Under the pieces are notes generated by a model. That model made no database searches. It saw only the letters and a program-made list of their open reading frames with translations, and was not told the DNA's origin. The translations under genes and the position numbers were made by a program. Shown here piece by piece: positions 3,882 through 32,055 of a stretch of DNA of 38,940 bases (position 1 is the first letter of the stretch; every line of letters starts with the position of its first letter). This DNA is from an uncultured Fidelibacterota bacterium (lineage in GTDB: Bacteria; Fidelibacterota; UBA8477; JABMPR01): NCBI GenBank assembly GCA_937888365.1, contig CALBFA010000110.1:1-38940 (forward strand). The letters are read 5' to 3'.

Positions 3882-5810
3882 TTGGCAAAAAACACAGAAG
3901 CTCAACTTAAAAAGGAGCCCCCTAGCCGACCCGCGAAAACAATGGGCCCCGTTGACAATCTTGAACAACACTTGCATCCTGAATGGTGGAAAAGAATATT
4001 TAATGCCATTTATCTCAAAACCGATGCAGATGTCGTAGAAGATGATGTCATTACAAAAAATGAAATTGAATTATTTAAAACGATTCTTGGTCTAAAAAAT
4101 GGTGATTCCCTCCTCGATCTCGCATGTGGTCAGGGTCGTCACCTTATCGAATTAGGCCAGTGCGGTGAATTTAATCTTTTCGGCATTGACCGGTCTCGTT
4201 ACCTTATTCAACGCGGAAAAAGTGCCTCGCGAAAAAAAGGGCTTTCTATCAATTTTAAAGAAGGTGATGCCCGTAAACTTCCTTACAGTACCGACACGTT
4301 TGACTTTGTAACGATTCTTGGGAATAGTTTTGGTTACTTTGAAACATCCGAAGACGACCTGAAAATTTTAAAAGAAGTCTTTAGAATTCTAAAACCCAAC
4401 GGAAAATTATTAATGGATGTAGCCGATGGTGCATTTTTAAGAGATAATTTTACGGCGAGAAGCTGGGAATGGATTGATAAAAAATACTTTGTCTGTCGGG
4501 AACGCTCTCTTGCGTCGGATAACGAAAGACTCATTTCACGAGAGGTTGTCACTCATACAGAAAAGGGTGTTGTGGTCGATCAGTTTTATGCCGAACGACT
4601 TTACACCAAAGAAATTTTGGCCCAATTAATTGAGAATGTCGGCTTTAAAAATACAGAGTCCCATGGAAATCTTGCCGTCGACTCAATACGCAATCAAGAT
4701 TTAGGCATGATGGCGAATCGCTTTATTTTAACGACCTCCGCTGTAAAAGAATGGACGCCGAAAAAAAGTAAAAAGGCCATCAAGAATGTCGTTGTTATAT
4801 TAGGTGACCCAAAGCTAAAAGACATCATAAAACCTGATGCGAAATTTGACTCGGATGATTTCGAAACCATCGAAAAATTGAGAATTGCATTGAGCAAATT
4901 AGACAATTATAAGTTTAGCTATATTAATAATCATAGTACCGTTATCACGGATTTGCAGAAGCTGAAAGGCAAGGTTGATTTGGTTTTTAATCTATGTGAT
5001 GAAGGATTCGAAAATGACGCTAAAAAAGAATTGCACGTTCCGTCACTTTTGGAGATCATGCGGTTTCCTTATACGGGATCAAACCCGCAAACCCTTGCTT
5101 ATTGTTATGATAAATCGTTGATACGCGGAATCGCAACGGAAATTGGTGTCCCTGTCGCGGACGCATTTGTTATCACCGCTGAAGAGAATCTCTATGAACT
5201 CAATATTCCGTTCCCTGTTATTGCAAAACCGAATTTTGGCGATTCAAGTTTCGGCATTACACAAAAAAATGTCGCATATAGTATTGAAGAGCTCGCAAAT
5301 GCGATCCTTCAAATTCGAACACAATTTGACTATAATAATCCGATTTTAGTTGAAGAGTTTCTAACAGGTGCCGAAATATCTGTTGGCATAATTGGCAACT
5401 CAGACAATTATACGGTTCTACCTATTATTGAAGAAGATTACTCAGAATTGCCCGAAGGATTGCCTAAAATTTGCGGATATGAAGCGAAATGGATGACGGA
5501 TTCACCATACATGCAAACGCTGCGATCGATTCGGGCTTCGCTACCTCAAGCTGTCGAGCAGGAAGTTATAAATCATAGTCTAAAACTATTTAGACGCTTG
5601 GACTGCAAAGATTACTGTCGATTTGATTGGCGTCTCAATAGCCAAGGCGAGCCAAAATTGCTCGAAGTGAATCCTAACCCGGGATGGTGTTGGGACGGAC
5701 ATTTGGCCAAAATGAGCAGCCATGGCGGAATGGATTATTCTCAAATGCTCAACGCAATATTGTGTGCGGCTGAATTAAGAAATAACCCCGTTGGAGGAAA
5801 CGCTAACTAA
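3882..5810 (+). CDS. fusion of class I SAM methyltransferase and D-Ala-D-Ala-ligase-like ATP-grasp enzyme
   Basis: 642 residues from a TTG start with GGAG at 3873-3876. Residues about 40-295 are a Rossmann methyltransferase: motif I LLDLACGQG (Asp79, Gly83, Gly85), an acidic residue after GIDRS, and the post-motif stretch RILKPNGKLLMDV. Residues about 303-635 are an ATP-grasp ligase of the Ddl type, with VVVILGDP at the first strand, YTGSNPQTLAYCYDKSL, the nucleotide loop FPVIAKPNFGDSSFGI, ILVEEFLTGAEISVGI, and the metal-binding LLEVNPNPGW. Both halves look intact. ATP-grasp ligases of this group join a carboxylate to an amine through an acyl phosphate. The fused methyltransferase may modify the same substrate or product. 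The gene stands alone with no biosynthetic neighbours, so the product is unknown. Confidence 0.85.
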   Translation: MAKNTEAQLKKEPPSRPAKTMGPVDNLEQHLHPEWWKRIFNAIYLKTDADVVEDDVITKNEIELFKTILGLKNGDSLLDLACGQGRHLIELGQCGEFNLFGIDRSRYLIQRGKSASRKKGLSINFKEGDARKLPYSTDTFDFVTILGNSFGYFETSEDDLKILKEVFRILKPNGKLLMDVADGAFLRDNFTARSWEWIDKKYFVCRERSLASDNERLISREVVTHTEKGVVVDQFYAERLYTKEILAQLIENVGFKNTESHGNLAVDSIRNQDLGMMANRFILTTSAVKEWTPKKSKKAIKNVVVILGDPKLKDIIKPDAKFDSDDFETIEKLRIALSKLDNYKFSYINNHSTVITDLQKLKGKVDLVFNLCDEGFENDAKKELHVPSLLEIMRFPYTGSNPQTLAYCYDKSLIRGIATEIGVPVADAFVITAEENLYELNIPFPVIAKPNFGDSSFGITQKNVAYSIEELANAILQIRTQFDYNNPILVEEFLTGAEISVGIIGNSDNYTVLPIIEEDYSELPEGLPKICGYEAKWMTDSPYMQTLRSIRASLPQAVEQEVINHSLKLFRRLDCKDYCRFDWRLNSQGEPKLLEVNPNPGWCWDGHLAKMSSHGGMDYSQMLNAILCAAELRNNPVGGNAN

Positions 5811-15102: not shown

Positions 15103-17373
15103 TTATTTTACTTGCAGTGTTTTCCCATAAAGCGTTACACCCGCATTTGCGATCTCGTATAGATAGAGTCCTGAAGGTAAATCTTTCGCATCCCAAGCGA
15201 TTGTTTGAGAACCTGAGCTTAAATATGTGAGGACTTTCTTTTCAATTTCTTGACCTTGAATATTATAAACTGTCAATTTTACATCACCTGCTTGCGGTAC
15301 ATAAAAAGATAAATGCGTCACGCCATTAAACGGATTCGGGTAATTGCCATACAATTTGAATGATGTAGGAACTACCATTTCAACAACATCATTGGTTTCA
15401 TCATACTCATACGCACCGATATCAGGTGCTAGTCCTCGGTAATCATCAGGGCTTAAATTTAAAAGAGTATCACCCTCCCAAACAAAAAAGTCCGTTCCCG
15501 CATCAATTGCTGGAGAATTCGCTGTTAAATAGTAGGGATTAACATCTCCTCCTTGAAACAATGGGTCTTCGTCAATATTGCCCTCTAGCCAATTAAGTGT
15601 ATTGGCTCCCATGCCCATCACGTTCCATTGACCCCCTTCTATCAGTGAGTTCTGCACCGTAAGCGTATTTCTTGAATTCCCATAGAGGTTATCCAGTAAT
15701 ATTTGCGTAGGACTATTGCCATACAAAATACTATTTACAACCGTTACCTCCGCATCATACATAACGAGTGCGGCACCTTCGGGGCTCGTGTTATCACCTA
15801 TGGTACAGTTAATCAGCTCGGCTGTGGTGTGTTCAATCGCTATTGCACTACTATTATAATAGAAACTTGTATAGTATTCATGATTTTGCGTGATTTCGAT
15901 ATTTCGTAAAATGTGCTTATCATTTTCACCTGCCACCATATCCATATAAAGTGGTAAGCCCAAATACATTTCCCATACCTCATCATAGGCTGGCGTTAAG
16001 TTGCGTATAGAACTATTGCTAAATACACATGTTGCATGATGCGCCATATGTACCAACAAACTGCAGGAATTGTCAATCATTTCTAAACTATCCAGAAGTA
16101 TTGAATCATTTGTTGGATGTGGTGAATCATCGGAACTGTACTTCCCCATGACAATAGCTCCTCCACTATTATTTGTAAATTTTAAGTTGCTATATTTACC
16201 ACCAATGTTTTCATAAAGTGTTATAGACCTTAAAACAGCTATGAAAGGAGCGCGAGTAATCCCCAACCGCGATATTGTATAATAATTATCATAACGAGCA
16301 AAAATGAGTGAGGCAACATCTTCTCCATCTAAAACCGTTAAATCTTTGCCTGCCCCTTGTATATTAACGTAACTCTTTGCATTGAGTGGAAAATGTTGTC
16401 CTGTGGATGGGGCAAAGACACCTTCATCTAGGTAAATCGTATGGGGGTTTAAACTATCACTCTCAATGATGCTTAAGGCATATTGTATTGTTTTTAAAGG
16501 CTCTGAAAACGATACACCGCTATTATTATCATCTCCATCAGGACTCACATAAAAATTATGGTCAAGAGGTTCAAAGTACGCATGCTCTACACTCAGTGTT
16601 AACGTTGGGGATAAACCAACAAAGTGCTCATCTGCCTGACCCACTGAGAATGTATCCAATGGAATAAATAAGTTAGTTGAATAACGCTCCGCCAGATAAA
16701 TGTCATTTTGAGCCCCTGAGTAATTATGATAGATACTACATTTATGAATCGGGTCAAATTCAGGATTACTCGTATGAAAAATCATTAAACCTCCACCCAT
16801 ATAGCCAGCAGTGTTGTCGTGAATACTGAGTCCTGATAGCAAAGGATTTGCCTCCTCTTCTATCGCGAGCCCAGCACCGGTGAAAAACCCCAAACCATGA
16901 TTGTCAGTTATTATACAATTTTTTATAGTAGGACTACTCTCGTCTATCCATATACCAGCTCCGTAGCTCATAGCGGGATGGTCATAAGGTCCCGGGTTTA
17001 AAAAACCATGTTGTATTGTAAATCCAATGAGTTGACAAGATCGATTCTCACCACTAGTTATGGTTACCACTCGTCCTTCATGATTGCCATCTATGATGGT
17101 TGTACTGATATAATTCTCATCTTCTGTATAAAGATAGCGTGACGTTAAAACCACATTTTTTCCATTAAAGTTGATATTCTCATAATAAGTCCCAGGTTCT
17201 ACCAGAATCGTATCACCCTGACTGGAGCCATCTATAGCGTCTTGAATCCGTACAAAATGACCCCCAGCTTCGGGTTGGACTATCCAAGTGGTGGCTTGGA
17301 TTGAGAAAGGAAACATCATGATTAGGATTAAATACAGAGCATGACAATTGAGCTTACAACGTTTAAATCCCAT
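15103..17373 (-). CDS. secreted right-handed beta-helix protein with type IX sorting domain
   Basis: 756 residues from the ATG at 17373, which has AAGGTG eight bases upstream. The open frame runs further but that part is repeat sequence. Residues about 1-27 form a signal peptide ending FSIQA. Residues 28-250 form a first parallel beta-helix (FVRIQDAIDGSSQGDTILVEPGTYYENI is the usual entry; NCIITDN-like coils follow). A second begins near residue 285 with FYVSPDGDDNNSG (DUF1565-like) and runs to PDIGAYEYDE. The last 80 residues are a type IX secretion sorting domain: YGNYPNPFNGVTHLSFYVP, then SGLYLYEI and a terminal Lys. Such proteins often bind or cleave polysaccharides, but no lyase residues can be assigned. 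A ~117-base repeat lies on each side. Confidence 0.88.
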   Translation of the reverse strand: MGFKRCKLNCHALYLILIMMFPFSIQATTWIVQPEAGGHFVRIQDAIDGSSQGDTILVEPGTYYENINFNGKNVVLTSRYLYTEDENYISTTIIDGNHEGRVVTITSGENRSCQLIGFTIQHGFLNPGPYDHPAMSYGAGIWIDESSPTIKNCIITDNHGLGFFTGAGLAIEEEANPLLSGLSIHDNTAGYMGGGLMIFHTSNPEFDPIHKCSIYHNYSGAQNDIYLAERYSTNLFIPLDTFSVGQADEHFVGLSPTLTLSVEHAYFEPLDHNFYVSPDGDDNNSGVSFSEPLKTIQYALSIIESDSLNPHTIYLDEGVFAPSTGQHFPLNAKSYVNIQGAGKDLTVLDGEDVASLIFARYDNYYTISRLGITRAPFIAVLRSITLYENIGGKYSNLKFTNNSGGAIVMGKYSSDDSPHPTNDSILLDSLEMIDNSCSLLVHMAHHATCVFSNSSIRNLTPAYDEVWEMYLGLPLYMDMVAGENDKHILRNIEITQNHEYYTSFYYNSSAIAIEHTTAELINCTIGDNTSPEGAALVMYDAEVTVVNSILYGNSPTQILLDNLYGNSRNTLTVQNSLIEGGQWNVMGMGANTLNWLEGNIDEDPLFQGGDVNPYYLTANSPAIDAGTDFFVWEGDTLLNLSPDDYRGLAPDIGAYEYDETNDVVEMVVPTSFKLYGNYPNPFNGVTHLSFYVPQAGDVKLTVYNIQGQEIEKKVLTYLSSGSQTIAWDAKDLPSGLYLYEIANAGVTLYGKTLQVK

Positions 17374-17488
17374 TATTCTTAGCACCTTTGTAGTTTTGTA
17401 GCCTTTAAACCACCCCGTCCCGACCCATAGCGTCGGGACATACTTCGAGAACCTCAGCAACAACCCCTCCTTAAAAAAGGAGGGGAAT
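17373..17488 (-). repeat. ~117-bp direct repeat, copy 2, supplying the leader of the beta-helix gene
   Basis: Near-copy of 14943-15060. It has two perfect hairpins: GTCCCGAC/GTCGGGAC (17417-17439, 7-base loop) and CCCCTCCTT/AAGGAGGGG (17464-17485, 4-base loop). The left edge coincides with the start codon of the beta-helix gene, so the repeat contains its ribosome site and 5' untranslated region. Confidence 0.88.
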
Positions 17489-17549
17489 TGATTCCTATTC
17501 TCATGTTTTGATTTTATCTCTTATGTTATCATTTATACCCATGTGTTTT

Positions 17550-19751
17550 TTATTTAAGCAGCATCACTTTCTGTGTGGACTGATAGTCAGAGGTTTTAAA
17601 TACGACAAAATACATCCCTGACGCCACATCGCTACCGTTCCATGTGAGTTCATATTGACCTCTATCTTGTTGACCTTGATATAGATTTTCAACGACTCGA
17701 CCACTCATGTCATAAATGACAACTGAAACATGTTCATGTTTGGCTAATGCATAGCGCAATGTAGTGCTGGGGTTAAAAGGGTTTGGATAGGCTGAAAGTA
17801 GAGATGTTTCCATAATCATCACTTCATCACTTTTTTCGATTTCGGCTTTATAAAGAACAAAGCCATCATCTGTCACATCTCTATCCATTTTAGCAAGCTT
17901 ATAGTGCTCTTTAAACATATTGTCATGCCCTATTGGGGTCCCATTGTCAGGAATACTTTTGGCTAAACCACCATCACGAACAATTTGGAATGAAAGATCG
18001 TCCATCGAGTCTGCACCATTGTATATTTGCATATAGACAGGAAAGCCCTTTGCGGGTTCTGCTGCAACACATTTATCGCCTATAAATGCAGCAATTTCAA
18101 TAACAGATTCAGGATCCGTAACGGTTTCAATCGTCAAAGCTGTATAGTCATCAAGCTCCTCGTACTGATATATTGTACCCTCTTTTGTCACACCTCGCAC
18201 AATACCGCCATTATAGTTGTAGGAAAAGTCTGTACTGGTTGATCCCGTATAATTCAGCTCGTACATTTGACCGTAGACAAACAATGGACAGCTCTCACTT
18301 GGCTCGGGTCCGTCACAACCTGAAGGCATTGCACCATACCACTGTGTTCCCTTTTTGTACATATACCAGTGTTGTCCTCGGATAGAAGAAATATTGTCTA
18401 AAACAGTGGCGGGTAATGCGTCGAAGGGTGATTGTGTTTCATTTACAAAATAGGAAACCCAGTTAATGCCAGGGGATAACGTAACACTTGCATCTTGTGC
18501 TATTTTGTCCCCAACAGTGTATAAGGGATATACCGCATATGTTTCAGCCATCCTCAATTTAACGCCTTGCTTGCTGTTAATGTTGATTGGAGAGGACCAT
18601 ACTCCATCTTGATAGCTTGAATTAACACCACCATTCAAAATAATTTGAAGCGCATCGGGAGCTACATTTTGCAGCACGTCGACAACATTAGTACCTTCAA
18701 TATCTCCTAATACTGGAAATCCCACCCAGTTCCAGCTGGAATGTAGAGTTTTTGTTTCTGCCATATCTTGATAAATGAAGTTATCATATACCTCTATATC
18801 TCCTATTCGAGGCAAGTAAACAAGTGTGCCATTTGGTATATTAACCCATGCACCAAAATTTTGACTGAGTGTCTCTTGAGAAGTGATTGTTTTTAAATGG
18901 AAAGATAAACCCTGTTGAGCATTTTCATAATCAGAGTCACAATAATATAGCGTATGCTGTAAGTCCACGTTATTGGATTCATTATTTTGAGCTTTACGAT
19001 ACCCCCAAATGGCCTCACCATTGGAAAAAAGAAAATTCAAACTCTCAGTAGAATGATTTATGATATTAGTAAAACTAGTAGATGAAAGTGCTTGATGAAT
19101 ACCTTGCAATATATCGCCATTGCTTTCCTCAACATTTTTCATAATCCAGAAGAAATAAAGTTCGGAATCTACAACATAGTCCAAATTATCTTCCCAAGCA
19201 CCATGACCAAAGGTTTGTAAGCCGCCATGATCGTTTATCCAATCTACGCCAATGATATTTTTTAATCCAACTTTGTCATTAATCGTCCCATTATGTGCAA
19301 AGGTATATGTAGCACCATTATATTCCATTATCCAGGGGTGTGGATCAGGAATACCTGTTGCACCAGAGCTAGACCTTCGAACATGTGCTAATATTGTTGT
19401 TGTATTTTGCCCTTCACCTATAAGTATATTTCTAGCATTAGAAAAACCTGAATTATACTCATTTGCTTGAACGGAACTGTTAAATTTCTCCATATACCTC
19501 GTGGTACCACTACCTAAATCTGAATAAAATAACATCCCCCAGCCATTTGGATGGTCATCATCACCTTGCCCTCTGAAATCATTAAGCTCCAAATATGTTC
19601 TTATTTGATTGCCATCATTTTCATTATTATTGCCACTTAATTCATAGCCAAAATCTGCTACAGAACCAAACAATCGACAGGCATAGACACTCTGATTTGT
19701 TATGAAAACGCTAATTAATAATAGAATCAATATTCTTTGAAAATTCTTCAT
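17550..19751 (-). CDS. secreted class-II glutamine amidotransferase-like protein with type IX sorting domain
   Basis: 733 residues with AAGGAG six bases before the ATG. A signal peptide (1-24) ends SVYA, and the next residue is Cys25 in CRLFG, which aligns with the N-terminal nucleophile of Ntn-type (class II, YafJ/EgtC-like) amidotransferases. Supporting motifs follow: HPNGWGM (67-73), ILAHVRRSSSG (Arg125), DPHPW (136-140), FAHNGTI (Asn154, Gly155, oxyanion hole) and a DSELYF stretch. After about residue 335 come two beta-sandwich-like repeats (SSWNWVGFPV and GINWVSYFV), then a type IX sorting domain: YPNPFNPSTTLRYAL, SGMYFVVF, terminal Lys. It should be a cell-surface or released amide hydrolase. 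No acceptor domain is present, so simple hydrolysis of an amide is likelier than amide transfer. The substrate is unknown. Confidence 0.85.
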   Translation of the reverse strand: MKNFQRILILLLISVFITNQSVYACRLFGSVADFGYELSGNNNENDGNQIRTYLELNDFRGQGDDDHPNGWGMLFYSDLGSGTTRYMEKFNSSVQANEYNSGFSNARNILIGEGQNTTTILAHVRRSSSGATGIPDPHPWIMEYNGATYTFAHNGTINDKVGLKNIIGVDWINDHGGLQTFGHGAWEDNLDYVVDSELYFFWIMKNVEESNGDILQGIHQALSSTSFTNIINHSTESLNFLFSNGEAIWGYRKAQNNESNNVDLQHTLYYCDSDYENAQQGLSFHLKTITSQETLSQNFGAWVNIPNGTLVYLPRIGDIEVYDNFIYQDMAETKTLHSSWNWVGFPVLGDIEGTNVVDVLQNVAPDALQIILNGGVNSSYQDGVWSSPININSKQGVKLRMAETYAVYPLYTVGDKIAQDASVTLSPGINWVSYFVNETQSPFDALPATVLDNISSIRGQHWYMYKKGTQWYGAMPSGCDGPEPSESCPLFVYGQMYELNYTGSTSTDFSYNYNGGIVRGVTKEGTIYQYEELDDYTALTIETVTDPESVIEIAAFIGDKCVAAEPAKGFPVYMQIYNGADSMDDLSFQIVRDGGLAKSIPDNGTPIGHDNMFKEHYKLAKMDRDVTDDGFVLYKAEIEKSDEVMIMETSLLSAYPNPFNPSTTLRYALAKHEHVSVVIYDMSGRVVENLYQGQQDRGQYELTWNGSDVASGMYFVVFKTSDYQSTQKVMLLK

Positions 19752-22986: not shown

Positions 22987-23207
22987 TGCATATTATGTTT
23001 TTACTTATGGGTTTTAGCCTTTTCGTTGCGACTGGTTTTCTTATCGCTTTTCTATGGGCGGTGCGTTCAGGACAATATGATGATAACTATACACCCTCCG
23101 TGCGAATGCTTTTTGACGATGGCGTTTCGAGTGATGTGTACGATAAACAGTTTTTTGGAGAGAAAACAAAAGAAGGAGAAAGAGTCAATGGAAATGGAAA
23201 AATTTAA
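22986..23207 (+). CDS. ccoS: cbb3-type oxidase assembly protein CcoS
   Basis: 73 residues. One N-terminal membrane helix (about 3-27) is followed by FLWAVRSGQYDD, the conserved CcoS stretch, and a charged tail. CcoS is needed to insert haem and copper into CcoN. Its ATG overlaps the ccoI stop, and its last 20 bases overlap the start of ccoNO, so three genes are translationally coupled. The tail beyond residue 50 is longer than in many homologues. Confidence 0.93.
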   Translation: MHIMFLLMGFSLFVATGFLIAFLWAVRSGQYDDNYTPSVRMLFDDGVSSDVYDKQFFGEKTKEGERVNGNGKI

Positions 23208-25317
23208 CTACGACAATTCGATCGTACGCATGTTTTTCATCGCCACTGTTGTTTGGAGTATCACCGCTTTTACCGTAGGTCTCACAATAGCTTTAGAGCT
23301 ACCATGGCCTGCATTAAACCTTGGTATATCTTGGATGACATTTGGTCGAATTCGTCCACTTCATACAAACGCAGCAATCTTTGCATTTGTAGGAAACGCG
23401 ATTTTTATGGGATATTATTATGCTATCCAACGTTTATTGAAAGCAAGGAACTTTAATGATACACTCTCAAAAATTCATTTTTGGGGATGGAATCTAATTA
23501 TCGTTGCTGCTGTTATTACCTTGCCTCTCGGTATTACGACAAGTAAAGAATATGCAGAATTAGAATGGCCAATTGATATCGCCATCACTTTAATATGGGT
23601 CGTTTGGGGCATCAACATGATTGGAACAATCATGAAACGCCGGGAAAAACATCTCTATGTGGCAATTTGGTTTTTTATCGCAACATTTTTTACGATCGCT
23701 GTTTTACATATCGGTAACTCGATGGAAATTCCAATTACATTGACAAAAAGCTACTCCCTTTATGCAGGTGTTCAAGATGCGCTTATACAGTGGTGGTATG
23801 GCCATAATGCTGTCGCATTTTTCCTTACAACGCCATTTTTGGGACTCATGTACTATTTCATGCCAAAAGCCGCACAGCGTCCTGTTTATAGCTATCGTCT
23901 GTCTATTGTTCACTTTTGGGCATTAATCTTTATCTATATTTGGGCCGGTCCTCACCATTTACTTTACACTTCAACACCAGACTGGGCACAAACATTAGGA
24001 ACTGTTTTCTCCGTTGTTCTCATAGCACCTTCCTGGGGTGGTATGTTAAACGGTCTTTTGACTCTACGTGGTGCTTGGGATAGAGTTCGTCAAGATCCTG
24101 TCCTCAAATTTATGGTCGTGGCCATTACCGCTTATGGTATGTCAACTTTCGAAGGCCCTATGCTTTCATTGAAGAATGTGAATGCCCTTTCCCACTTTAC
24201 GGATTGGACCATTGCGCATGTTCACGTCGGTGCACTCGGTTGGAATGGATTTTTTACGTTTGGTATGATTTATTGGCTCGTTCCACGTCTATATGGAACA
24301 AAATTATATTCCGTTAAATGGGCTAATTGGCATTTTTGGATTGGAACATTAGGTATCCTCTTCTGGGTTATTCCAATGTATTGGGCAGGCATTACGCAAG
24401 GTTTGATGTGGAAACAATTCACACCTGAAGGCAATATCATGTATCCGAACTTTTTAGAGACGGTTACTCAAATTATTCCTATGTATTGGATGCGTGCTTT
24501 TGGTGGAACGCTCTATTTATCAGGGGCTATTCTGATGGCTGTCAACGTTTTTAAAACAACGAAGCAAGGTACATTCATACCTGAAGAAGCAGCTGAAGCA
24601 GCACCCTTGGTTCTTAATCGTGAAGCCGAGACCACCACCGGTTATAAGCATCGTTGGATTGAAAGTCGTCCGATACAATTCTTTATTCTATCGACTGTTG
24701 TTATTTTAATTGGCGGACTTGTCGAAGCGATTCCACTATTTGTTGTTAAATCTAATATCCCAACGATCGAATCAGTAAAACCATATACGGCGCTTCAACT
24801 CACGGGTCGCGATATTTATATACGCGAAGGTTGTTATAACTGTCACTCACAAATGATACGACCTTTCCGTGATGAAGTTGCGCGTTATGGCGAATATTCA
24901 AAAGCGGGTGAATTTGTCTATGATCACCCATTCTTGTGGGGTTCAAAACGTACGGGACCCGATTTACTTCGCGAAGGCGCTGCAGGTCCATTGAAAAAAC
25001 CTGATGCGTGGCATTTTAGTCACATGAGAGATCCAAGAACGATGTCTCCAGGTTCGATAATGCCTCCTTATCCATGGCTCATTGAAAATGAAACTGATTA
25101 TAGCACAATCGGTGCAAAAATCTCAGGCCTTCGAAAAATTGGCGTCCCATATCCAGAAGGATATGAAGATAGAGCAATGGCGGATATTAAAGCCGATGCC
25201 CAGGTTATTGTTGGACACTTGAAGTCAAGTGGTGTCCAAACAACTTGGGATCGTGAAATTGTAGCAGTAATCGCCTATCTACAAGGACTAGGCGCCCATT
25301 TAGACACTGGTAAATAA
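23188..25317 (+). CDS. ccoNO: fused cbb3 cytochrome oxidase subunits I and II (CcoN-CcoO)
   Basis: 709 residues from ATG 23188, with GGAG at 23175-23178. The open frame extends upstream but that part is ccoS sequence in another frame. Residues 1 to about 470 are CcoN: haem-b and CuB ligands are visible in RPLHTNAAIFAF, WWYGHNAVAFF, AGPHHLLYTSTPDW and TIAHVHVGALGWNGF. A linker of about 35 residues leads to CcoO, with a TM anchor (FFILSTVVILIGGLVEAIPLF), a single c-type haem site CYNCH (549-553) and a methionine-containing MPPYPWL segment. Fusion of the two subunits is known in Bacteroidetes and relatives. This is the terminal oxidase, a high-affinity proton-pumping enzyme in the inner membrane. 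Confidence 0.96.
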   Translation: MEMEKFNYDNSIVRMFFIATVVWSITAFTVGLTIALELPWPALNLGISWMTFGRIRPLHTNAAIFAFVGNAIFMGYYYAIQRLLKARNFNDTLSKIHFWGWNLIIVAAVITLPLGITTSKEYAELEWPIDIAITLIWVVWGINMIGTIMKRREKHLYVAIWFFIATFFTIAVLHIGNSMEIPITLTKSYSLYAGVQDALIQWWYGHNAVAFFLTTPFLGLMYYFMPKAAQRPVYSYRLSIVHFWALIFIYIWAGPHHLLYTSTPDWAQTLGTVFSVVLIAPSWGGMLNGLLTLRGAWDRVRQDPVLKFMVVAITAYGMSTFEGPMLSLKNVNALSHFTDWTIAHVHVGALGWNGFFTFGMIYWLVPRLYGTKLYSVKWANWHFWIGTLGILFWVIPMYWAGITQGLMWKQFTPEGNIMYPNFLETVTQIIPMYWMRAFGGTLYLSGAILMAVNVFKTTKQGTFIPEEAAEAAPLVLNREAETTTGYKHRWIESRPIQFFILSTVVILIGGLVEAIPLFVVKSNIPTIESVKPYTALQLTGRDIYIREGCYNCHSQMIRPFRDEVARYGEYSKAGEFVYDHPFLWGSKRTGPDLLREGAAGPLKKPDAWHFSHMRDPRTMSPGSIMPPYPWLIENETDYSTIGAKISGLRKIGVPYPEGYEDRAMADIKADAQVIVGHLKSSGVQTTWDREIVAVIAYLQGLGAHLDTGK

Positions 25318-29952: not shown

Positions 29953-32055
29953 ATGAAAATCACACACATATTTCAATACTACCTAACCGCTCTCCTTCTT
30001 TCGACCTTTATTTTTGCTGATATTCCCAATGGATATTACGACTCGGCGCAAGGTCTCATTCAAGAGCCACTACAAGCCAGCTTACATGACATCATAGACA
30101 ATCACAATGCCCGAACCTATGCCCAACTTTGGACTGATTTTCAAACGACAGATCAGAAACCCAACGGCAAAGTTTGGGATATGTATTCTGATATTCCCAA
30201 TCAATCGCCGCCCTACGAATACACATTTGTTTCGGATCAGTGTGGCAATTATAGCGGCGAAGGAAGCTGCTATAATCGTGAACACTCATGGCCTAAAAGT
30301 TGGTTTAATGATGCGGCGCCTATGTACACAGATTTATTTCATCTCGTTCCGACGGATGGCTATGTCAATGGGATGCGAAGCAATTATCCTTATGGCGAAG
30401 TCGGGACGGCGACATGGACAAGCCAAAATGGGAGCCAGCTTGGAGCATGTGTAACACTGGGATATTCTGGAACCGTTTTCGAACCCATTGATGCCTATAA
30501 AGGCGACTTTGCACGAAATTATTTCTATATGTCCACGCGATATTATGGCGAAGATGGAGGATGGCCAGGATCGCCAATGGTGAATGGCTCACAGCTGGAA
30601 CCGTGGGCATTAGACATGATGATGCGATGGCATGTTGATGACCCTATCAGTCAAAAAGAAATCGACAGAAATGATGCTATTTACGGCATTCAAGGCAATC
30701 GGAATCCCTATATCGATCATCCTGAATATGTCAACAGTGTTTGGGGAAATATGCCTGTTTCGCCTTCAAACTTGCTACTTCATAACCTAAGTTCAAATTC
30801 GGTGACAATTAGTTGGACCGATGAAGCCGACAATGAATTCGGCTTTTATATTTATATGGATGCCATTCGCGTGGACACCTTAGTCGCCAATAGTTATGAA
30901 ATATCTATTGTCAGTCTTTCACCCTCCACCGAATATTTATTTGGTGTCTCAGCCTATAATGCTGATGGAGAATCAGGCATTTCGAACCTTTCGTTTATCA
31001 CTGGCAGCGGTACCGCGCCCAATGCACCGAATAGTGTTACGGGGAGTAATATCACCAGCGCAAGTTTAACACTTACATGGACTGATAACGCCAACGACGA
31101 AAACGGTTTTTATATCTATCAGGATGCGCAACTTCGCGACAGTGTCGCTTCAGACATCACACAATACGATGTGACATTATTAAGCGCTGAAACACAGTAC
31201 ACCTTTGGAATCGCGGCATTTAATTCGGGCGGCATTTCAGGCATCTCTACCGTGACGCTTACAACAACGAACGGTGGCGGCAGTACGGAAACGCATTTTA
31301 TTGAGGGCTTTGAAACAGGAAGCGGCTCGTCTTACATTGCGGGGAATTACACTTTAGAAAGCGGCGTTTGGGAGATGTCTGCTGCGGGAAATTTCACCTT
31401 GGGGACGCCTTTTAGCGGGAATTTGTGCCTCGCGATCAATGATGACACGCCCAACGCACACGTGACCACGCCGTCTGTAAATAGCGTGGGAACTGTATCG
31501 TTTTATTATTATCAACGATCCGGCGATAGCGACGATGACTTTATTCTGCAAAAATCTCTTAATAGCGGTGCTTGGGAAGATGTCGTTACACAAGCGTTTA
31601 ATATGGGCGAAAGCTATACACTATTTTCCTATGACATCAATGATGAGCGTGACAATATCAAGATTCGTATTTTAAGTGATGACAATACAGGACACCTTAT
31701 TATTGATGACTTTACCCTGACAAATTACGAACCTATCGGAATAATTGATATTTCAAAACCTGAAATAATGCCTCAAACTATTTCCATAAGCAATGTATAT
31801 CCAAATCCATTTAATCCTGTCGTGTATTTTAGTGTGTTATCGCAAGAGGATGCAACGTCTCTAAACATTAATGTCTTTAATATTCGTGGTGAATGGGTTT
31901 CTCATGTTTTTTCGGGCGAGATTGCCCTGGGGACGAGAAACTTTATGTGGAATGGGACAAATGGTGCTGGCGAAAATGTTCCGTCAGGTGTTTATATGAT
32001 TCGCGGTGAGAATGGGAGTATCAACATTTCCAAGTCCGTTACATTATTAAGATAA
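29953..32055 (+). CDS. secreted endonuclease I family nuclease with two FN3 domains and type IX sorting domain
   Basis: 700 residues. Signal peptide 1-22 (ending IFA). Residues about 24-270 are an endonuclease I (EndA/NucM) domain opening with IPNGYYDSAQGL and carrying the His-Me finger-like site YNREHSWPKSWF (His111), then DLFHLVPTDGYVNGMRSNYPYGEV. Two fibronectin type III domains follow (about 273-353 and 357-435), each with a W-TD-A(N/D)-E-GFYIY strand. Next comes a jelly-roll-like anchor domain (about 440-590) and a type IX sorting domain with YPNPFNPVVYFSV. It would degrade extracellular DNA for nutrient or phosphate supply. It is preceded by 160 AT-rich bases with TATGCT 22 bases before the ATG. 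Confidence 0.92.
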   Translation: MKITHIFQYYLTALLLSTFIFADIPNGYYDSAQGLIQEPLQASLHDIIDNHNARTYAQLWTDFQTTDQKPNGKVWDMYSDIPNQSPPYEYTFVSDQCGNYSGEGSCYNREHSWPKSWFNDAAPMYTDLFHLVPTDGYVNGMRSNYPYGEVGTATWTSQNGSQLGACVTLGYSGTVFEPIDAYKGDFARNYFYMSTRYYGEDGGWPGSPMVNGSQLEPWALDMMMRWHVDDPISQKEIDRNDAIYGIQGNRNPYIDHPEYVNSVWGNMPVSPSNLLLHNLSSNSVTISWTDEADNEFGFYIYMDAIRVDTLVANSYEISIVSLSPSTEYLFGVSAYNADGESGISNLSFITGSGTAPNAPNSVTGSNITSASLTLTWTDNANDENGFYIYQDAQLRDSVASDITQYDVTLLSAETQYTFGIAAFNSGGISGISTVTLTTTNGGGSTETHFIEGFETGSGSSYIAGNYTLESGVWEMSAAGNFTLGTPFSGNLCLAINDDTPNAHVTTPSVNSVGTVSFYYYQRSGDSDDDFILQKSLNSGAWEDVVTQAFNMGESYTLFSYDINDERDNIKIRILSDDNTGHLIIDDFTLTNYEPIGIIDISKPEIMPQTISISNVYPNPFNPVVYFSVLSQEDATSLNINVFNIRGEWVSHVFSGEIALGTRNFMWNGTNGAGENVPSGVYMIRGENGSINISKSVTLLR

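Follow-up and report, generated by a model that had tools for sequence, protein, structure and literature searches.

The question raised by this locus was whether a class-II amidotransferase, whose nucleophile has to stand at the N-terminus, could be switched on by its own export, as an earlier note on this DNA had proposed. The window (the whole 38,940-nt stretch analyzed, corresponding to contig CALBFA010000110.1 of an uncultured Fidelibacterota bacterium) contained an intact ORF of 733 codons with an ATG start on the minus strand, and this gene had the following components:

17550..19751, minus strand: whole gene, encoding a predicted exported class-II amidotransferase-fold (Ntn) protein of 733 aa (ORF list, Pfam, and NCBIfam).
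19680..19751, minus strand: signal peptide, aa 1 to 24 (MKNFQRILILLLISVFITNQSVYA), with predicted cut A24/C25 (sequence; -3/-1 pattern and hydrophobic core kept in 66 homologues).
19677..19679, minus strand: Cys25, predicted N-terminal nucleophile and mature residue 1 (Cys in 59/66 and Ser in 7/66; aligned with the YafJ Cys after Met).
18807..19679, minus strand: GATase_4 or YafJ-EgtC-like Ntn domain, aa 25 to 315 (PF13230; profile-profile comparison with YafJ; PDB profile matches).
19362..19388, minus strand: AHVRRSSSG, aa 122 to 130, with His123 (66/66), Arg125 (65/65), and Gly130 (66/66).
19287..19295, minus strand: HNG, aa 153 to 155, predicted oxyanion hole (His 66/66, Asn 64/66, and Gly 66/66).
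19161..19169, minus strand: DSE, aa 195 to 197 (Asp 66/66 and Ser 66/66).
17808..18806, minus strand: middle region, aa 316 to 648, with two WNWVGFP/NWVSYF-like modules (sequence; Pfam and PDB searches).
17553..17789, minus strand: type IX secretion C-terminal sorting domain, aa 655 to 733 (PF18962 and TIGR04183).

The class-II motif set listed in the earlier note was complete, with every named motif in its place: V22-Y23-A24/C25-R-L-F-G, HPNGWGM (aa 67 to 73), AHVRRSSSG (aa 122 to 130), DPHPW (aa 136 to 140), AHNGT (aa 152 to 156), and DSE (aa 195 to 197). Pfam search matched PF13230 (GATase_4) on aa 60 to 259 (E = 3.5e-15; 56.1 bits against a cut-off of 23). The comparison with YafJ that the note had called for upheld, at the level of profiles, the placement in the class-II amidotransferase/Ntn family: hhalign against five YafJ-like proteins gave 99.75% probability over the full domain and aligned mature Cys1 on YafJ Cys2 (after Met), and a PDB search with a 53-member profile retrieved 3mdn (3e-12) and 1te5 (3.9e-12), followed by PurF and GlmS. 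An Ntn alpha-beta-beta-alpha fold of the window domain may be expected from these profile matches; AlphaFold modeling from two sequences gave pLDDT 29 for the Ntn domain and 39 for the C-terminal part, values too low for fold searches. Membership in EgtC itself was rejected: the window protein had no TIGR03442 match, and its best-scoring paralogue (L003) reached 29.5 bits against a cut-off of 218.65. The middle region (about 330 aa) had no Pfam or PDB relative, the PDB search matching the tail only.

The C-terminal type IX sorting domain claimed earlier was confirmed by two matches: Por_Secre_tail PF18962 on aa 655 to 730 (Pfam; E = 1.7e-11) and the T9SS type A tail TIGR04183 (NCBIfam; E = 3.4e-13; 49.4 bits against a cut-off of 23). 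Both of the two T9SS core proteins tested were present in the host genome, namely PorU (E = 1.3e-201) and SprA (E = 4.1e-35), and thus the machinery was available for the sorting tail. The 2.53-Mb host assembly contained two further genes of the same layout: (i) a 728-aa paralogue on contig 42, with VYA/CRLLS at the signal end, and (ii) a 410-aa paralogue on contig 106, with VFG/CRLFS; PurF was encoded by a separate gene (L004). Elsewhere in the window, another exported T9SS protein, composed of endonuclease I and fibronectin III domains plus a sorting tail, was encoded at 29953-32055 (plus strand). The plus strand also carried a 642-aa ORF fusing a methyltransferase domain to a D-Ala-D-Ala-ligase-like ATP-grasp domain (3882-5810), together with a COX1-FixO fusion in one ORF (cytochrome oxidase subunit I joined to the mono-haem subunit; 23026-25317), which adjoined an Rrf2 regulator and a P-type ATPase for heavy metals.

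The codon preceding Cys25 was GCC and not a start codon, so that Cys25 could be exposed by proteolysis only and not by Met removal. Among 245 genomes from the phylum Neomarinimicrobiota (Fidelibacterota), 57 contained relatives by profile search, and 66 relatives read from the fetched loci were aligned. The nucleophile column directly abutted the signal peptide, with no extra residue, in 66/66 relatives (including L062, whose contig ended inside the signal region and left only the last three signal residues visible); such abutment across all the homologues was not attributable to chance, and the claim that the Ntn domain starts right after the signal peptide held throughout the family. With cleavage sites assigned by the -3/-1 rule and by eye, the residue at -1 was Ala in 43 relatives, Pro in 14, Gly in six, and single others in the rest, and 50/66 relatives, the window protein included, conformed to the rule. 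Conservation jumped at +1, where entropy was 0.49 bits, compared to 2 to 3.5 bits at most signal positions. All but one of the 14 homologues with Pro at -1 belonged to genus g2. Pro just before the predicted nucleophile was seen in L014, L015, L019, L021-L023, L026, L027, L029, L038, L039, L041, L042, and L064, and also in the C69 protein L143; among near neighbours of the Pro(-1) group, L028 and L031 had Ala and L032 had Ser at this position.

His123, Gly130, His138, Pro139, His153, Gly155, Asp195, and Ser196 were invariant in the 66 relatives, as was Arg125 wherever readable (65/65). The expectation that Cys25, Asn154, and Gly155 would all prove invariant was thus borne out for Gly155 (66/66), while Asn154 was kept in 64/66 and Cys25 in 59/66, with Ser in the other seven. 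Cys at the apparent +1 was absent in the beta-helix partners (see below) and in the other T9SS proteins listed. A T9SS-tail profile matched 61 of the 66 homologue frames, and of the five without a match at least four came from stretches that ended short of the C-terminus. A scan of 84,980 species with narrow peptide patterns added one further locus, from the same phylum; no relatives were found in viral contigs, and plasmid records yielded YafJ-like proteins only (21 to 30% identity), with a signal peptide in none of the five examined.

The window protein is probably an Ntn amidohydrolase that works outside the cytoplasm and belongs to the YafJ/EgtC branch (GATase_4) of class-II amidotransferases; it would have its Cys25 freed by signal peptidase, be exported by T9SS, and be paired with a beta-helix protein. 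The precursor would be made inactive, its nucleophile hidden behind the Sec signal peptide; Sec export would be followed by the signal peptidase cut A24/C25, and Cys25 would then form the free N-terminus, with its alpha-amino group as the base and its thiol as the nucleophile. The oxyanion hole would be formed by His-Asn-Gly (aa 153 to 155), a role presumed from family knowledge; Arg125 and Asp195, which we take to occupy the positions of the glutamine-carboxylate-binding Arg and of the residue binding the substrate alpha-amino group in GlmS/PurF, respectively, would grip the substrate, glutamine or a gamma-glutamyl compound, at its amino-acid end. The type IX system, using the C-terminal domain, would take the protein across the outer membrane to the surface, where it would hydrolyze the side-chain amide of its substrate in concert with the beta-helix protein.

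Signal peptidase might instead cut elsewhere or leave a few residues, so that autoproteolysis would free the nucleophile, as in PurF and propeptide-bearing C69 dipeptidases. Signal peptidase I normally rejects Pro at -1, and for the 14 Pro(-1) homologues either the host signal peptidase tolerates Pro or the Ntn domain frees itself; in addition, some C69 proteins of the phylum carried a propeptide ending DG/C. For class-II amidotransferases, a review describes a short propeptide, a few residues ahead of the Cys that are removed autocatalytically (PMC9140057). Against this route, the -3/-1 site stood exactly before the nucleophile in the window protein and 49 homologues and left no room for a propeptide, making it unlikely compared to direct release of Cys25 by signal peptidase.

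The favored reading also involved the gene directly downstream of the amidotransferase gene, and the two genes were separated by a short intergenic region:

15103..17463, minus strand: conserved partner gene, probably starting with the ATG at 17373, for an exported protein of the right-handed beta-helix type (DUF1565/Beta_helix) that carries a T9SS sorting domain (Pfam; neighbourhood conservation).
17464..17485, minus strand: intergenic stem-loop CCCCTCC-TTTTTTAA-GGAGGGG, resembling a terminator in its pattern only.

Full-length relatives of the partner (33 to 74% identity over 740 to 790 aa) adjoined every 730- to 750-aa amidotransferase form, and the linkage extended across seven families (f1, f2, f8, f12, f17, f18, and f19), while the short amidotransferase forms of about 400 aa had no beta-helix partner. 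A search of the phylum with a partner profile retrieved 16 loci, either full-length or split or truncated where a contig ended, below which the score dropped from 578 to 374 bits; 15/16 had an amidotransferase gene upstream or a contig break consistent with one, the exception being G224:C239. The PDB search with the partner gave a marginal pectate-lyase match (E = 0.0026), in which none of the individual stretches passed. Gene linkage was the strongest functional hint obtained, and it suggested that the amidotransferase and the beta-helix protein probably act together at the cell surface.

Stem-loops of the terminator-like kind displayed no excess over shuffled sequence. In the window stretch 17393-17520, the translation beside the CCCCTCC...GGAGGGG palindrome (VPTLWVGTGWFKGYKTTKVLRIMG) was identical in the paralogous cassette, in the manner of a converted patch or dispersed repeat. 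The two amidotransferase/beta-helix cassettes of the host genome (window 15103-19751 and L106 64-4683) shared patches with 98 to 100% DNA identity, located at about 17730-17130 and 15780-15180 in the window and flanked by stretches of 40 to 80% identity; this patchiness suggests recent gene conversion, affecting in part the portion of the amidotransferase gene that encodes the sorting domain.

The partner gene, almost always beside the long form, and the conserved glutamine-binding positions would also accord with a true amidotransferase or transamidase, releasing ammonia or forming an acyl enzyme for transfer to an acceptor, be it on the beta-helix protein or on the cell surface. No synthase domain was recognizable in either protein, however, and EgtC and Dug3, the gamma-glutamyl amidohydrolases of ergothioneine and glutathione metabolism, act without a synthase; transfer was accordingly considered quite improbable. 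The lack of an attached synthase domain favors hydrolysis over transfer, and the window protein is likelier an amidohydrolase on glutamine or a gamma-glutamyl compound. The name amidotransferase, used in the earlier note, was appropriate for the family as defined by profile but too specific for the activity.

The +1 column contained Cys in 59 relatives, Ser in seven, and nothing else. On a maximum-likelihood tree built without the nucleophile residue, the Cys/Ser label needed five changes, at least four of which were forced by well-supported branches. Five of the seven Ser proteins were the partner-linked long form and two were still longer (897 and 1112 aa); all of them kept the Arg, His-Asn-Gly, and Asp of the active site. 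One locus, L088 (G241:C171 1-9853), harbored two complete cassettes in tandem, one amidotransferase having a Cys nucleophile and the other Ser. Because both residues serve as nucleophiles in Ntn hydrolases generally (PMC5474475), the restriction of +1 to Cys and Ser fits an Ntn nucleophile, and the Ser forms may be active members of the exported GATase_4 family. A lipoprotein, with V-Y-A-C as lipobox, Cys25 lipidated by the SPII route, and the domain reduced to a surface anchor or binding module devoid of catalysis, would agree with Cys at +1 in the window protein and with lipobox-like ends (LSAC and LNAC) in several homologues, but it was rejected as very improbable because Ser, which is not lipidatable, stood at +1 in seven relatives through four to five independent changes with the rest of the active site kept, so that a lipobox cannot be obligatory in the family; moreover, the fold started directly at +1 without a linker, the polar TNQSVYA stretch and the Tyr at -2 were atypical, and surface sorting was already supplied by the T9SS tail.

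Release of the nucleophile by signal peptidase, as favored for the window protein, is not new as a principle, because the C69 dipeptidases and a CBAH relative of the same phylum displayed the same layout: the former commonly had ...SFA/CTNFLI or ...ALA/CTNFLI, and the latter had ...LFA/CTSFVL. The C69 dipeptidases (L143-L151) were of two kinds: in one the nucleophile immediately followed the signal peptide, and in the other a short propeptide with the ending PDG/C came in between. Signal-peptidase activation is also exemplified by the penicillin V acylases of Gram-negative bacteria and by the bile salt hydrolase of Bacteroides. The proposal that export frees the nucleophile thus retained its core, the nucleophile standing at +1 family-wide, but is not unprecedented; the novelty lies in its apparent use by class-II amidotransferases, and our literature search found no paper linking class-II amidotransferases with signal peptides, signal peptidase, or export.

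Neomarinimicrobiota are an abundant, almost uncultured marine phylum. We tentatively suggest, with somewhat more doubt than conviction, that its members carry on their surface an undescribed class-II amidotransferase-fold family, which is exported, activated by signal peptidase, and subject to repeated Cys-to-Ser exchange, and the long form of which is paired with a beta-helix protein. If so, the Ser members would be, to our knowledge, the first natural class-II amidotransferase enzymes with a Ser nucleophile, and the repeated natural exchange on one tree would offer a ready enzyme set for testing Ser in class-II amidotransferases. Replacement of the initiator Met by a signal peptide at the same residue would be a simple route outward for a cytosolic enzyme family, silent until exported. 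For this phylum, in which glutamine-like or gamma-glutamyl organic nitrogen may be processed extracellularly, the amidotransferase and beta-helix genes form a concrete, conserved pair.

The window protein was finally compared with four groups of known systems. YafJ (Pfam GATase_4; E. coli YafJ and P. aeruginosa 1te5) fell into the same fold family when profiles were compared along the entire domain, and YafJ-type proteins and the window family shared the Cys start and the GWG, HxRxxxxG, HPF/HPW, HNG, and DSE motifs; however, YafJ is a cytosolic protein of about 255 aa with the initiator Met directly before Cys and with neither signal peptide nor sorting domain, while the window family had a signal peptide, a middle region, and a T9SS tail, with a Ser nucleophile in some members. 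EgtC and Dug3 have the superfamily in common with the window protein and, being hydrolases without a synthase domain, suggest a gamma-glutamyl substrate, but they are cytosolic. The glutaminase domains of GlmS and PurF share the catalytic residues (Cys1, Arg, His-Asn-Gly, and Asp), but they are cytosolic and fused to synthase domains. Exported Cys-Ntn hydrolases (C69 and the choloylglycine-hydrolase/penicillin V acylase family) resembled the window protein in that the signal peptide abuts the nucleophilic Cys, but they represent other Ntn families with other substrates, and several C69 members retain a propeptide.
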